Assembly (NCBI GenBank): GCA_934667465.1
Contig: CAKUMG010000034.1
Coordinates: 1 to 16,204 of the forward strand
Length of the DNA stretch: 16,204 nucleotides
Reading direction: 5' to 3'
Source of the DNA: an uncultured Actinoplanes sp.
GTDB taxonomy: Bacteria > Actinomycetota > Actinomycetes > Mycobacteriales > Micromonosporaceae
Positions within the stretch are counted from its first letter, which is position 1. The number at the start of each line of letters is the position of its first letter. Positions 3,145 to 7,964 of this stretch are shown here, piece by piece. The position numbers and the translations under genes were made by a program. The notes under the pieces are model-generated. The model saw only the letters and a list, made by a program, of their open reading frames with translations, was not told where the DNA came from and did not search any database.

Positions 3145-4578
3145 TCAGATCTCCACCCCGGTCAGGACCATGACGCGCGGCTCGGTGTAGTCCTCCATCG
3201 CGCTGGCCACGCCCTCCCGGCCGACGCCGCTGCCCTTCTGGCCGCCGTACGGCATCTGGTCCGCGCGGTAGCTCGGCACGTCGCCGACGATCACGCCGCC
3301 GACCTGCAGCGTGCGGTGCGCCGCGAACGCCGTCCGCAGGTCGTGGGTGAACACGCCCGCCTGCAGCCCGTACGCGGAGTCGTTGATCGCGGCGAAGCCG
3401 GCCTCGTCGTCGGGGACCTGCGCGACCACCAGGACCGGGCCGAACACTTCCTCCGCGACCAGCTTGGCCTCCGGCGGCACACCGGTGAGGACGGTCGGCG
3501 CGTACGTGGCGCCGTCGCGCGTCCCGCCGGTCAGCACCGTGGCACCGGCCGCCACAGCCTCGCGGACCCACGCCTCCACGCGCTCGGCGGCCGCCTCGCT
3601 GATCATCGGTCCGACGTCGACGGCGGGGTCGCCCGGATCCCCCGTACGCAGAGATTGCACCTCGGCGATCAGGCGCGGCAGCAGGTCATGGCGCTCGTGG
3701 ACGTAGACCCGCTGGACCGCGATGCAGCTCTGACCGGCCTGATAGGTGCCGAACGTGGCGATCCGCTTCGCGGCCCACGCGAGATCATCGTCGCTGCCGT
3801 AGTCGGCGCAGACCAGCACCGCCGCGTTGCCGCCGAGCTCCAGCGTGACGTGCTTCTCCGGGGCCTGGCGGCGGATCTGCGCGCCGACCGGGCCCGAGCC
3901 GGTGAACGACACGACCGGCAGGCGCGGGTCGGTGACCAGGGCGGACGCGCGCTCGTTGGGGATCGGCAGCACCGAGAACATGCCCGCCGGCAGCTCGGTC
4001 TCGGCCAGGATCGAACCGAGCAGCAGCGCGGTCAGCGGGGTGGCCGGCGCGGGCTTGAGCACGATCGGCGCGCCCACCGCCAGCGCCGGGGCGACCTTGT
4101 GGGCAACCAGGTTGAGCGGGAAGTTGAACGGCGAGATGCCCAGGACCGGCCCGCGCGGCACCCGGCGCACCACGGCCATCCGGCCCGCGCCGCCCGGATC
4201 GGTGTCGAGGCGCTGCAGGTCACCGGAGAAGCGCCGCGCCTCCTCCGCCGCCCAGCGGAACACCGACACCGCCCGGTCGGCCTCGATCAGGGCCCACTTC
4301 AGCGGCTTGCCGTTCTCGGCAGTGATCAGCTCGGCGATCTCCTGGCGGCGCTCCGCGAGGCGCCGGGAGACGTGGTCGAGCGCGGCCGCGCGCACATGGG
4401 CGGGCAGCGCCGCGGCCTCGGCGGCGACCGACGCGGCCGCTGCCACCGCGGCCTCCACCTGCTCGTCGGTGGCCCAGGTGGTCGCACCGACGGCGCGCCC
4501 GTCGAACGGATGGGTCACCGCCACCTCGCCGGTGCCGTGTGCCGGTGTGCCTGCCACATAGAAAGCTGTCGCGTCCAC
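3145..4578 (-). CDS. NAD(P)-dependent aldehyde dehydrogenase, lactaldehyde/phosphonoacetaldehyde-like subgroup
   Basis: This 477-residue protein is full length for the ALDH superfamily. Landmarks are the cofactor and oxyanion segment 'SPFNFPLN' with Asn152, 'VLKPAPATPL' (173-182), 'SFTGSGPVG' (224-232), the general base Glu247 in 'LELGGNAA', and the catalytic Cys285 in 'GQSCIAVQRVYVHE'. The last motif, with IAVQR after the cysteine, resembles the ALDH branch that includes lactaldehyde and phosphonoacetaldehyde dehydrogenases; the true substrate is unknown. The start GTG 4578 has no Shine-Dalgarno sequence but lies 6 nt after a TAGGGT box, so the mRNA may be leaderless. It is divergent from the GAF regulator at 4701 and probably co-transcribed with nfi, whose start is 26 nt beyond the stop. 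Regulation through the inverted repeat at 4633-4657 is plausible. Confidence 0.92.
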   Translation of the reverse strand: MDATAFYVAGTPAHGTGEVAVTHPFDGRAVGATTWATDEQVEAAVAAAASVAAEAAALPAHVRAAALDHVSRRLAERRQEIAELITAENGKPLKWALIEADRAVSVFRWAAEEARRFSGDLQRLDTDPGGAGRMAVVRRVPRGPVLGISPFNFPLNLVAHKVAPALAVGAPIVLKPAPATPLTALLLGSILAETELPAGMFSVLPIPNERASALVTDPRLPVVSFTGSGPVGAQIRRQAPEKHVTLELGGNAAVLVCADYGSDDDLAWAAKRIATFGTYQAGQSCIAVQRVYVHERHDLLPRLIAEVQSLRTGDPGDPAVDVGPMISEAAAERVEAWVREAVAAGATVLTGGTRDGATYAPTVLTGVPPEAKLVAEEVFGPVLVVAQVPDDEAGFAAINDSAYGLQAGVFTHDLRTAFAAHRTLQVGGVIVGDVPSYRADQMPYGGQKGSGVGREGVASAMEDYTEPRVMVLTGVEI

Positions 4579-4700: not shown

Positions 4701-6074
4701 GTGCCCGACCCCTGGCTCGCCCTCGACCTCGGCGCCGACCCCGCGGAACGGATCGGGCAGGTCGGCCGCGCCCACGAGCGCTTCGTGCTGGAGCAGGCGG
4801 ACGGGGTGGTGCCCGGCGGTCCGGATCGGCAGGATTCGAGCGGCGGACACGTTGGCCGCCGTGGTACTTCCCCCTCCCTGGGCGGGGAGCCTGTGGTGGG
4901 CGCGGGAGGCGGGGTGCGGCCGGTGGTGGCCGCGTCGTGGCGGCGGTCGGCGGGGGCGCTGGTGAGTCCGGACAGCACCGCGCCGATCGAGCTGGCCGAT
5001 GCGGAGCTGGAGGCGTACCGGGCGGCGCATCCGCTGGCCCGGATGCTGCCGATCTTCCGGGATCTGCTGGGCGGGCTGGCCGACGACGGGGCGCATCTGA
5101 TGGCCGTCTGCGATGCGGCGGGCCGGCTGCTGTGGGTGGAGGGTGCCCCGGCGGTGCTGCGCGGGGCGGAGTCGATGAACTTCGTGCCGGGTGCGCGGTG
5201 GGACGAGGCGCATGCGGGGACGAACGCGCCCGGGACGGCGCTGGCGGTGGACCATTCGGTGCAGATCTTCGCGACGGAGCATTTCAGCCGCGGGGTGCAG
5301 CGGTGGACGTGTGCGGCGGCGCCGATCCACGATCCGGCGAGCGGGCGGCTGCTGGGGGCGATCGATGTCACCGGGGGTGATCATCTGGCGCACCCGCACA
5401 GTCTGGCGCTGGTCCGGGCCACCGCGCTCGCGGCGGAGGCGTGGCTGGGGGCGCTCGTCCCGAGGGTGCGGCGGGTGTCGGTACTGGGGCACGACGACGC
5501 CGTGGTCACCGTCGACGGGCGGCGGCTGCGGCTCGGGCGGCGGCACAGTGAGCTGTTGTGCCTGCTCCTGGTGCACCCGGATGGGCGTACGGGCGAGCAG
5601 TTGGGTTTTGATCTGTATGGCGACGATCTCAAGACGGTGACCGTGCGCGCGGAGCTGTCGCGGCTGCGGCGGGTGCTGGGGCCCGAGGTGCTGGATTCGC
5701 GGCCCTACCGGCTGCGCGGCGAGGTGGACGCGGACTTCCTGACGGTGACCCGGCTGCTGGCGCGGGGGCGGGTCGCGGAGGCGGTCGAGGCGTACGCGGG
5801 GCCGCTGCTGCCGGCCTCGGACGCGCCCGGGGTGGTGCGGCTGCGGGAGTCGATCGAGGCGCGGCTGCGCACGGCGCTCGTCGCGGCGGCCGATCCGGCA
5901 CCGCTGCGGACCTGGCTGAACACCGCGTGGGGCGCCGATGATCTGCAGCTGTGGGAGGCGTACGCGGCAGTGCTCCCGGCGGGGTCGCCGGCGCGGCCGC
6001 TCGCCGCGCACAGGGTCGCGCTGCTGCGTACGGAATATGGACTTGCAACGTCTGTGCAACGTCGCCGTCACTAG
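4701..6074 (+). CDS. GAF-domain transcriptional regulator with SARP-like winged-helix output
   Basis: The start is GTG 4701, preceded by GGGAGG with 6 nt spacing, giving 457 residues. Residues 1-34 and 72-90 form a helical N-terminus ('[10 protein letters not shown]', '[11 protein letters not shown]') like that of AcoR-type activators. Residues about 105-250 form a GAF domain with the AcoR-type signature '[15 protein letters not shown]' (167-181) and '[10 protein letters not shown]' (217-226). Residues about 255-340 look like an OmpR/SARP winged helix ('[16 protein letters not shown]', '[13 protein letters not shown]', 'YRLRG'). Residues 341-445 are helical and resemble a shortened BTAD region. 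No AAA+ sigma-54 domain is present. Residues about 35-72 are a Gly/Pro/Ser-rich insertion. It is divergent from one aldehyde dehydrogenase and 11 nt upstream of another, so it is probably an aldehyde- or alcohol-responsive regulator of both. The ligand is unknown. Confidence 0.85.
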
Positions 6075-6077
6075 CGT
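6044..6077 (+). promoter_or_regulatory. Candidate SARP-type promoter for the AldB-like dehydrogenase
   Basis: TGCAACGTC occurs at 6044-6052 and again at 6055-6063, an 11-bp period. Exactly 8 bp later comes TAGCGT (6072-6077, TANNNT), and the dehydrogenase ATG begins 8 nt after that box. Known SARP activators bind direct repeats with an 11-bp (or 22-bp) period whose 3' copy lies 8 bp from the -10 box and replaces a -35 element; no -35 hexamer is visible here. The repeats lie in the last codons of the regulator gene, and TAGCGT overlaps its TAG stop. Confidence 0.55.
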
Positions 6078-6085
6078 CCCGCGGC

Positions 6086-7571
<1,486 letters not shown>

Positions 7572-7579
<8 letters not shown>

Positions 7580-7599
7580 TGGGCGTGTTCTGATGGGCG
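7572..7599 (+). repeat. 14-bp perfect tandem duplication at the dehydrogenase/DUF779 junction
   Basis: TGTTCTGATGGGCG occurs twice head to tail (7572-7585 and 7586-7599). Each copy contains a TGATG stop/start overlap. The first carries the dehydrogenase stop; the second carries the DUF779 start. Confidence 0.9.
7579..7593 (+). other. Possible four-codon mini-cistron (MGVF) created by the duplication
   Basis: ATG at 7579 overlaps the dehydrogenase stop (TGATG) and reads Met-Gly-Val-Phe-stop; its TGA again overlaps the DUF779 ATG at 7593. It is a direct product of the 14-bp duplication. Terminating ribosomes could re-initiate twice in a row. Whether it is translated is unknown. Confidence 0.35.
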
Positions 7600-7964
7600 C
7601 GCGCGTCGATGTGACCCCCGCGGCGGCCGATCTGATCCGGTCGCTGCGGGGGCAGCACGGGCCGCTGATGTTCCACCAGTCCGGCGGCTGCTGCGACGGG
7701 AGCGCTCCGATGTGCTACCTGGAGGGAGAGTTCCGTACGGGTTCCGGCGACGTCCTGCTGGAGGAGCTCCGCGTCGACGGTGTGGCCGAGCCGGTGTCCT
7801 TCTGGATGAGCGCGGCCCAGTTCGAGGCGTGGAAGCACACGCACCTCACGGTGGACGTGGTCCCGGGCCGCGGCAGCGGGTTCAGTCTCGAGGCGCCGGA
7901 GGGGGTGCGTTTCCTGATCCGCAGCCGTGTGCTCACGGCGGAGGAGCTGGCCGCCCTGGCGTGA
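7593..7964 (+). CDS. DUF779 family protein
   Basis: This 123-residue protein carries the family signature 'HQSGGCCDGSAPMCY' (His28, Cys33, Cys34, Cys41), which suggests metal binding or redox-active thiols, then 'VSFWMSAAQFEAWKHTHLTVDVVPGRGSGFSLE', a stretch typical of the family, and 'VRFLIRSRVLT'. DUF779 genes are repeatedly found directly downstream of AldB/ExaC-type aldehyde dehydrogenases in actinobacteria and proteobacteria, so a helper role for that enzyme (assembly, activation or protection) is a reasonable inference, but no function is proven to my knowledge. The start ATG 7593 overlaps the stop of a four-codon frame; translation is probably coupled to the dehydrogenase. It converges with the methyltransferase gene. 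Confidence 0.92.
   Translation: MGARVDVTPAAADLIRSLRGQHGPLMFHQSGGCCDGSAPMCYLEGEFRTGSGDVLLEELRVDGVAEPVSFWMSAAQFEAWKHTHLTVDVVPGRGSGFSLEAPEGVRFLIRSRVLTAEELAALA

Follow-up and report, generated by a model that had tools for sequence, protein, structure and literature searches.

A GAF-SARP regulator and its probable target promoter

A stretch of 16,204 nucleotides (nt) from an uncultured Actinoplanes sp. (assembly GCA_934667465.1, contig CAKUMG010000034.1), hereafter the window, carries the gene of a GAF-SARP regulator, in which a GAF sensor precedes a SARP-type output domain, directly followed by exaC, an ExaC-type acetaldehyde dehydrogenase gene. It is highly probable that this regulator is a combined sensor and activator that drives exaC from a two-repeat box within the last codons of the regulator's own gene; the element is a SARP-type promoter, most likely operated by the GAF-SARP regulator whose gene end holds it. 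The site, its geometry, its conservation, its co-occurrence with the regulator and the fold of the protein were all computed here. The features concerned are as follows.

4701..6074, plus strand: GAF-SARP regulator gene (P0003), 457 amino acids, start GTG 4701
5001..5456, plus strand: sensor half, GAF domain, with approximate borders and a fold closest to the DhaR sensor
5457..6071, plus strand: output half (residues 253-457), modelled as an OmpR-type winged helix plus a BTA-like helical domain, the complete SARP fold
5634..5678, plus strand: recognition helix (residues 312-326), where site-less paralogues differ at R316 and R321
6044..6051, plus strand: upstream operator repeat TGCAACGT, from direct reading and conservation
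6055..6062, plus strand: downstream operator repeat TGCAACGT, from direct reading and conservation
6072..6077, plus strand: -10 hexamer TAGCGT, whose TAG (6072-6074) doubles as the regulator stop codon
6084..6086, plus strand: predicted transcription start, at or next to the ATG, from spacing (7-9 nt past the -10); no Shine-Dalgarno-like sequence
6086..7579, plus strand: exaC-type acetaldehyde dehydrogenase, the putative target (NF050026, 924.2 bits; curated cut-off 900)
7593..7964, plus strand: DUF779 protein, next gene in the same direction (PF05610, E 1.8e-45)

Direct reading of the window bears out the arrangement that an earlier sequence-only reading had described: TGCAACGTC occurs exactly at both 6044-6052 and 6055-6063, with an 11-bp period, and is followed by the 8 bp of GCCGTCAC (6064-6071), by TAGCGT and, across the 8 nt of CCCGCGGC (6078-6085), by the ATG at 6086. 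Both repeats sit within the open reading frame (ORF) of the regulator, and exaC begins 11 nt past the regulator stop. The target had been called aldB; it is an aldehyde dehydrogenase gene, but the name does not hold, given the ExaC-type match. The nearest relatives of the encoded enzyme are from Actinoplanes sp. RD1 and Symbioplanes lichenis, which gives the window a Micromonosporaceae look.

Conservation of the box at regulator junctions

Within the window, the repeat by itself is not significant and chance is plausible, as it is the single exact 9-mer repeat of 11-bp period, against a mean of 0.36-0.47 in Markov windows; none of 300 random windows contained the full layout (any exact 9-mer repeat, period 11, 8 bp, TANNNT, 6-12 nt, ATG). 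For the comparison with relatives, the genome collection was searched with six regulator peptides, all from outside the operator, which gave 185 regulator relatives; the best 80 of these were taken together with the window (81 junctions). Genera that we take to be Micromonosporaceae account for 79 of the 80 loci, and locus L054 comes from an actinomycete metagenome-assembled genome.

GCAACGT-N4-GCAACGT followed by TANNNT at exactly 9 nt is found at 80 of the 81 junctions, with both heptamers perfect in 76, one mismatch in 3 and two in 1. The remaining junction is that of L072, where exaC is on the opposite strand and apart from the regulator; searching the genome places the box 27 nt before exaC, and with L072 counted at the actual position of its exaC, direct repeats of 11-bp period are present at 81/81 loci. 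Absence of the repeat from relatives retaining both genes was an outcome that the sequence-only reading had named as refuting it, and the comparison has come out in its favour. Across the 80 junctions, GCAAC of both repeats and the T, A and T of the hexamer are invariant (80/80), and the spacer bases and remaining hexamer positions vary, giving 11 different hexamers. At the first position of the repeat unit, the 80 upstream copies have T 46 times and C 33 times, and 76 of the 80 downstream ones have T. The conserved unit is an 8-mer, TGCAACGT, plus 3 free bases, such that the period and gap proposed earlier stand and the 9-mer unit is replaced. A chance repeat, possible from the window alone, is ruled out by this conservation across junctions.

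Promoter geometry and predicted leaderless transcript

If transcription starts at 6084, 7 nt past the -10, the pair of 11-bp repeats spans -40 to -19. In excerpts from PMC10936776, the afs box is located at -19 to -40, and AfsR makes contacts over bp 1-8 of each 11-bp repeat, leaving the last 3 untouched; here, roughly 8 bp per repeat are conserved and 3 are free. The SARP rule to which the earlier reading appealed (direct repeats of 11-bp period, 8 bp before the -10) describes the window correctly, the -10 lying 8 bp after the 9-mer TGCAACGTC, or 9 after the heptamer GCAACGT, in the layout kept at 80 of 81 junctions.

A leader of 8 nt between the -10 and the ATG is seen at only 5 of the 80 junctions (window, L002, L006, L007, L011), which form one side of a branch with an approximate likelihood-ratio support (SH-aLRT) of 92. 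Shine-Dalgarno-like sequences are absent from all five and present in 74 of the 75 others. Because of the 8-nt gap and the missing Shine-Dalgarno-like sequence, the window exaC mRNA is predicted to be leaderless, and a leadered-to-leaderless change, with loss of both exaC leader and Shine-Dalgarno, is predicted for this one clade.

Architecture of the regulator and its recognition helix

The suggestion that the regulator ends in a SARP-type output domain is upheld by structure modelling: as modelled, the output half is a winged helix followed by a BTA-like domain, the full SARP fold, with residues 3-200 of the model aligning with AfsR 23-249 and residues 2-199 with EmbR 8-240 in fold comparison. 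The C-terminal tail is its least confident stretch (mean predicted local distance difference test score, pLDDT, 46-47 over the last 5-7 residues). Trans_reg_C was matched in 7 of 12 regulator family members (best E 4.1e-4), P0003 itself not being among them, and the Pfam search gave no receiver-domain match in the regulator. The GAF domain scores 31.3 bits (Pfam cut-off 22.4), and the sensor half matches the DhaR sensor 4lrx_C (Foldseek E 1.7e-9). The ORF stays open upstream as far as GTG 4626, which gives a 482-residue form.

The closest described systems each differ from the protein in some respect. Its sensor half is like that of DhaR, the regulator of the dihydroxyacetone kinase operon of E. 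coli, with NF008485 spanning residues 153-265 of the 482-residue form, but at only 47.7 bits against a cut-off of 551; its output half matches AfsR, unlike that of DhaR, which is presumably of the enhancer-binding type. From OmpR/PhoB-type response regulators it differs in having an additional BTA-like domain and no receiver-domain match. AfsR, the SARP of Streptomyces coelicolor that acts at the afs box, begins with its SARP domain and continues with NOD and TPR (PMC10936776, in part), whereas here the SARP domain is C-terminal, behind a GAF sensor, the repeat sequence is different and the target is an aldehyde dehydrogenase. In EmbR of Mycobacterium tuberculosis the additional domain is a C-terminal FHA domain, as described in the same excerpts, whereas here it is an N-terminal GAF sensor. 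The published classes (small, large and SARP-LAL) have the SARP domain at the N-terminus according to excerpts of PMC10972967; since that domain is C-terminal here (residues 253-457), the regulator is placed in none of them and is simply termed a protein carrying a SARP output domain.

Among 38 selected recognition helices, arginine occupies residues 316 and 321 in all 27 site-linked helices (the window, 18 of exaC type including near forms, and 8 of hairpin type), and lysine and histidine occupy these positions in all 11 paralogues without a nearby site. The latter (L243-L252, L294) have the helix sequence TLKAEVSHLR, or TVKAEVSHLR in the case of L251, and lack a GCAAC box in the vicinity. 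R92 of AfsR is named as base-contacting in excerpts from PMC10936776, and the S-R-L-R motif suggests that R321 pairs with it.

Co-occurrence with the regulator and number of targets

In each of 11 genomes (5.2-13 Mb) the exact two-heptamer pattern has a single occurrence, always inside the regulator locus. As the exact box occurs once per genome checked, the regulator would mainly serve exaC. The reversed control in these 11 genomes is not independent, as the reversed pattern hits the same TGCAACGT box; that of the class-wide search is independent. Class-wide, a looser pattern, with fixed period, gap and TANNNT (given more freedom only at the 81 junctions and for the 12 near forms below), occurs in 97 of 296 genomes, against 8 for the reversed control. 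Sites lie within 5 kb of a regulator-query match in 89 of 109 cases, with 119 matches considered after weaker GAF-only rows were left out and two pieces were merged for G304 and G039. Of the 113 site rows in the class-wide set, which represent 104 distinct sequences and count some sites twice where stretches overlap, 73 have an exaC start 27-311 nt downstream.

The box accompanies the regulator closely. Among the 111 of 296 genomes with exaC, 87 were counted as having the regulator (a full-length genome match, or tblastn above 100 bits in the fetched stretch), of which 70 show the exact layout, 12 a near form and 5 none; the near forms, searched at period 10, 11, 12 or 22 and gap 10-12, have a repeat spacing of 10 or 22 or one mismatch, at an always identical distance to the -10. 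None of the 24 exaC genomes without detected regulator has the box, nor do any of 111 shuffled upstream controls. These 24 may include false negatives, as up to 5 candidates were scored per genome, and stretches around sites were longer than those before site-less exaC; in two of them (G031, G099) the enzyme is only 63-64% identical. Among 21 genomes with a full-length regulator but no exact pattern, 10 have exaC nearby, 9 of these with the repeat (one without TANNNT), and the remaining 11 have neither exaC in the stretch nor the box. Conversely, 29 exaC genomes lacked both the exact pattern before exaC and a listed full-length regulator; 25 have neither regulator (within 3 kb) nor box, and the other 4 have both.

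Several observations weigh against an exaC-dedicated GAF-SARP activator. In 40 of the 113 site rows no exaC start lies within reach, some stretches being too short. Five of the 87 exaC genomes are site-less despite a counted regulator: G227 has the repeat without TANNNT, the regulator of G189 is of the no-site type, the match in G270 is a GAF-only stretch on another contig, and the absence in G118 and G239 is unexplained. The Pfam BTAD model matched 0 of 12 family members at E up to 10, HMMER filters dropping weak matches, and the 11 no-site paralogues may be one lineage, with the helix change a single event.

In the window itself, both strands were scanned at periods of 10, 11, 12 and 22, and no other box with up to 2 mismatches was found, save a 22-bp-period pair that uses the first repeat of the present site; with up to 4 mismatches allowed where TANNNT follows, the one hit (minus strand, 2209) had 4. 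The scan thus leaves no box at the regulator's own start or at the divergent aldehyde dehydrogenase, a second such gene at 3145-4578 on the minus strand.

Some class-wide sites have other neighbours, identified by eye from translations: zinc alcohol dehydrogenases in L127, L217 (where the ORF starts 39 nt past the site) and L230, acyl-CoA synthetases in L154, L165 and L167, and a diol-dehydratase-like subunit in L153. Unrelated-looking genes follow others, e.g., L191 and L211. The boxes in L217, L127 and L230 suggest that the regulon can extend to alcohol oxidation, and the non-exaC neighbours together hint at an alcohol-to-acid pathway.

Alternative explanations

The repeat might be no operator at all but a feature of the protein, the regulator tail ATSxQR, and at 61 of 80 junctions it is indeed translated as that tail, inside the ORF and in the same frame as in the window. 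At the other 19, however, the same DNA lies in another frame (10), across the stop (4) or past it (5), and an ExaC tree (quick method, 80 rows) requires 5 or more changes between frame 0 and the other placements; because the box is kept across frames and these changes, selection acts on the DNA and the protein tail is a consequence. In L072 the box travels with exaC, apart from the regulator, class-wide copies lie beyond the regulator stop (e.g., L109, L112, L114, L115), and the tail is the part of the output domain modelled with the lowest confidence. The tail explanation is accordingly next to impossible, and coding constraint as the cause of the repeat is ruled out by the frame shifts. The related claim that the operator is also coding sequence is true of the window but fails as a general rule: it depends on where the regulator gene ends and is not a principle, the stop codon coinciding with the first three bases of the -10 at 52 of 80 junctions and the other 28 retaining TA with no stop there. 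An ECF sigma factor, rather than SARP-assisted housekeeping RNA polymerase, could be imagined to use the promoter, given AAC in TGCAACGT and CGTC in TAGCGTC, elements that the sigma-E promoters tabulated in excerpts of PMC6767563 also carry. Yet the CGT of the -10 is variable (TAGCCT, TAGCTT, TAAGTT and others) where T, A and T are invariant, the two repeats are equally invariant, and AAC to CGTC spans 14 nt (second AAC) or 25 (first), against 17 in two rows of that table. These three points leave an ECF promoter unsupported and highly improbable.

Other readings accept the box but change its role. Expression of exaC solely by read-through from the regulator, with the box an evolutionary remnant in the window, would suit the 11 nt between regulator stop and exaC, over which translational coupling is possible; against it, the window and its four leaderless relatives have a perfect box and -10, and the box is also retained where gaps are long or the genes separated, which makes pure read-through quite improbable. 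It is also unlikely, though worth more weight, that the box is a true exaC operator bound by another OmpR-family protein, such as a PhoP- or GlnR-like response regulator, with the GAF protein incidental: the box is present in 82 of 87 exaC genomes with the regulator and 0 of 24 without, an altered recognition helix accompanies its absence, and a single box per genome ill suits a global regulator.

Proposed mechanism and significance

In the proposed mechanism, one protein would combine an N-terminal sensor of the DhaR kind with a C-terminal SARP-type output domain, and two output domains, side by side, would occupy the TGCAACGT repeats at -40 to -19, hold RNA polymerase on TAGCGT and so promote exaC transcription in response to an alcohol- or aldehyde-related signal. 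From the computed features we infer binding, activation, the start site and the nature of this signal. In the window's lineage the end of the regulator gene lies within the target promoter and the leader before the ATG has been lost, so that exaC would be read from a leaderless mRNA.

The SARP literature consulted describes SARPs as activators of antibiotic clusters, whose added domains, if any, are nucleotide-binding or TPR; by contrast, a full SARP fold here stands behind a GAF sensor and apparently regulates one aldehyde dehydrogenase gene. Among PMC papers under CC0, CC BY and CC BY-SA licences, titles and abstract starts yielded no paper on a GAF-SARP or on the GCAACGT box; in three inspected excerpts of Streptomyces papers, GCAACGT stands in a table of sigma-E targets and in two lists of primers. 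New here would be a SARP architecture that puts the sensor first, the control across the class of an aldehyde dehydrogenase by way of one main box, and the paralogue linked to an RNA that is described below. With operator, -10 and recognition helix all legible from sequence, and with one protein, one main box, one gene and a predicted leaderless product, the system offers a simple natural setting for SARP mechanism, and paralogues with changed recognition-helix arginines offer a comparison of specificity. As a caution, a conserved C-terminal protein motif such as ATSxQR may be a disguised DNA operator.

A candidate hairpin RNA beside a paralogue

In L253-L264 (e.g., L253:7146-7245), a GCAAC-repeat promoter precedes a hairpin some 50 nt long, which begins about 7-13 nt past the -10. 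These boxes adjoin a GAF-SARP paralogue of about 40% identity, in either orientation relative to it; no exaC was found in the 14-16 kb stretches and no conserved ORF was seen downstream. Across the 12 sequences, 7 of 13 pairs show changes in both partners, and 92.3% of cells are paired, where slid versions give 24-49%; 0 of 500 shuffles reach the both-sided-change and pairing figures, but 42 of them do so for the number of further pair types. L262 is a poor fit to the hairpin. At gathering thresholds Rfam gave no match in the window or in the 6 of 12 hairpin loci searched.

The hairpin is a candidate small RNA. We hold with somewhat less than even confidence that GAF-SARPs form a class-wide, sensor-first SARP-type branch for alcohol and aldehyde oxidation, working through an essentially single operator, and that in one group of genomes a paralogue retains the same DNA code, now attached to a small structured RNA gene; if so, that paralogue would be a SARP-type regulator with a noncoding RNA target.

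Neighbours of the hairpin also include, by eye, genes for an MshB-like deacetylase and for peptide-ABC-transporter-like proteins. In L258-L262 a second inverted repeat, near GTGGCGTGCTGAA...TTCAGCACGCCAC, lies directly past the first hairpin and is perhaps a terminator.
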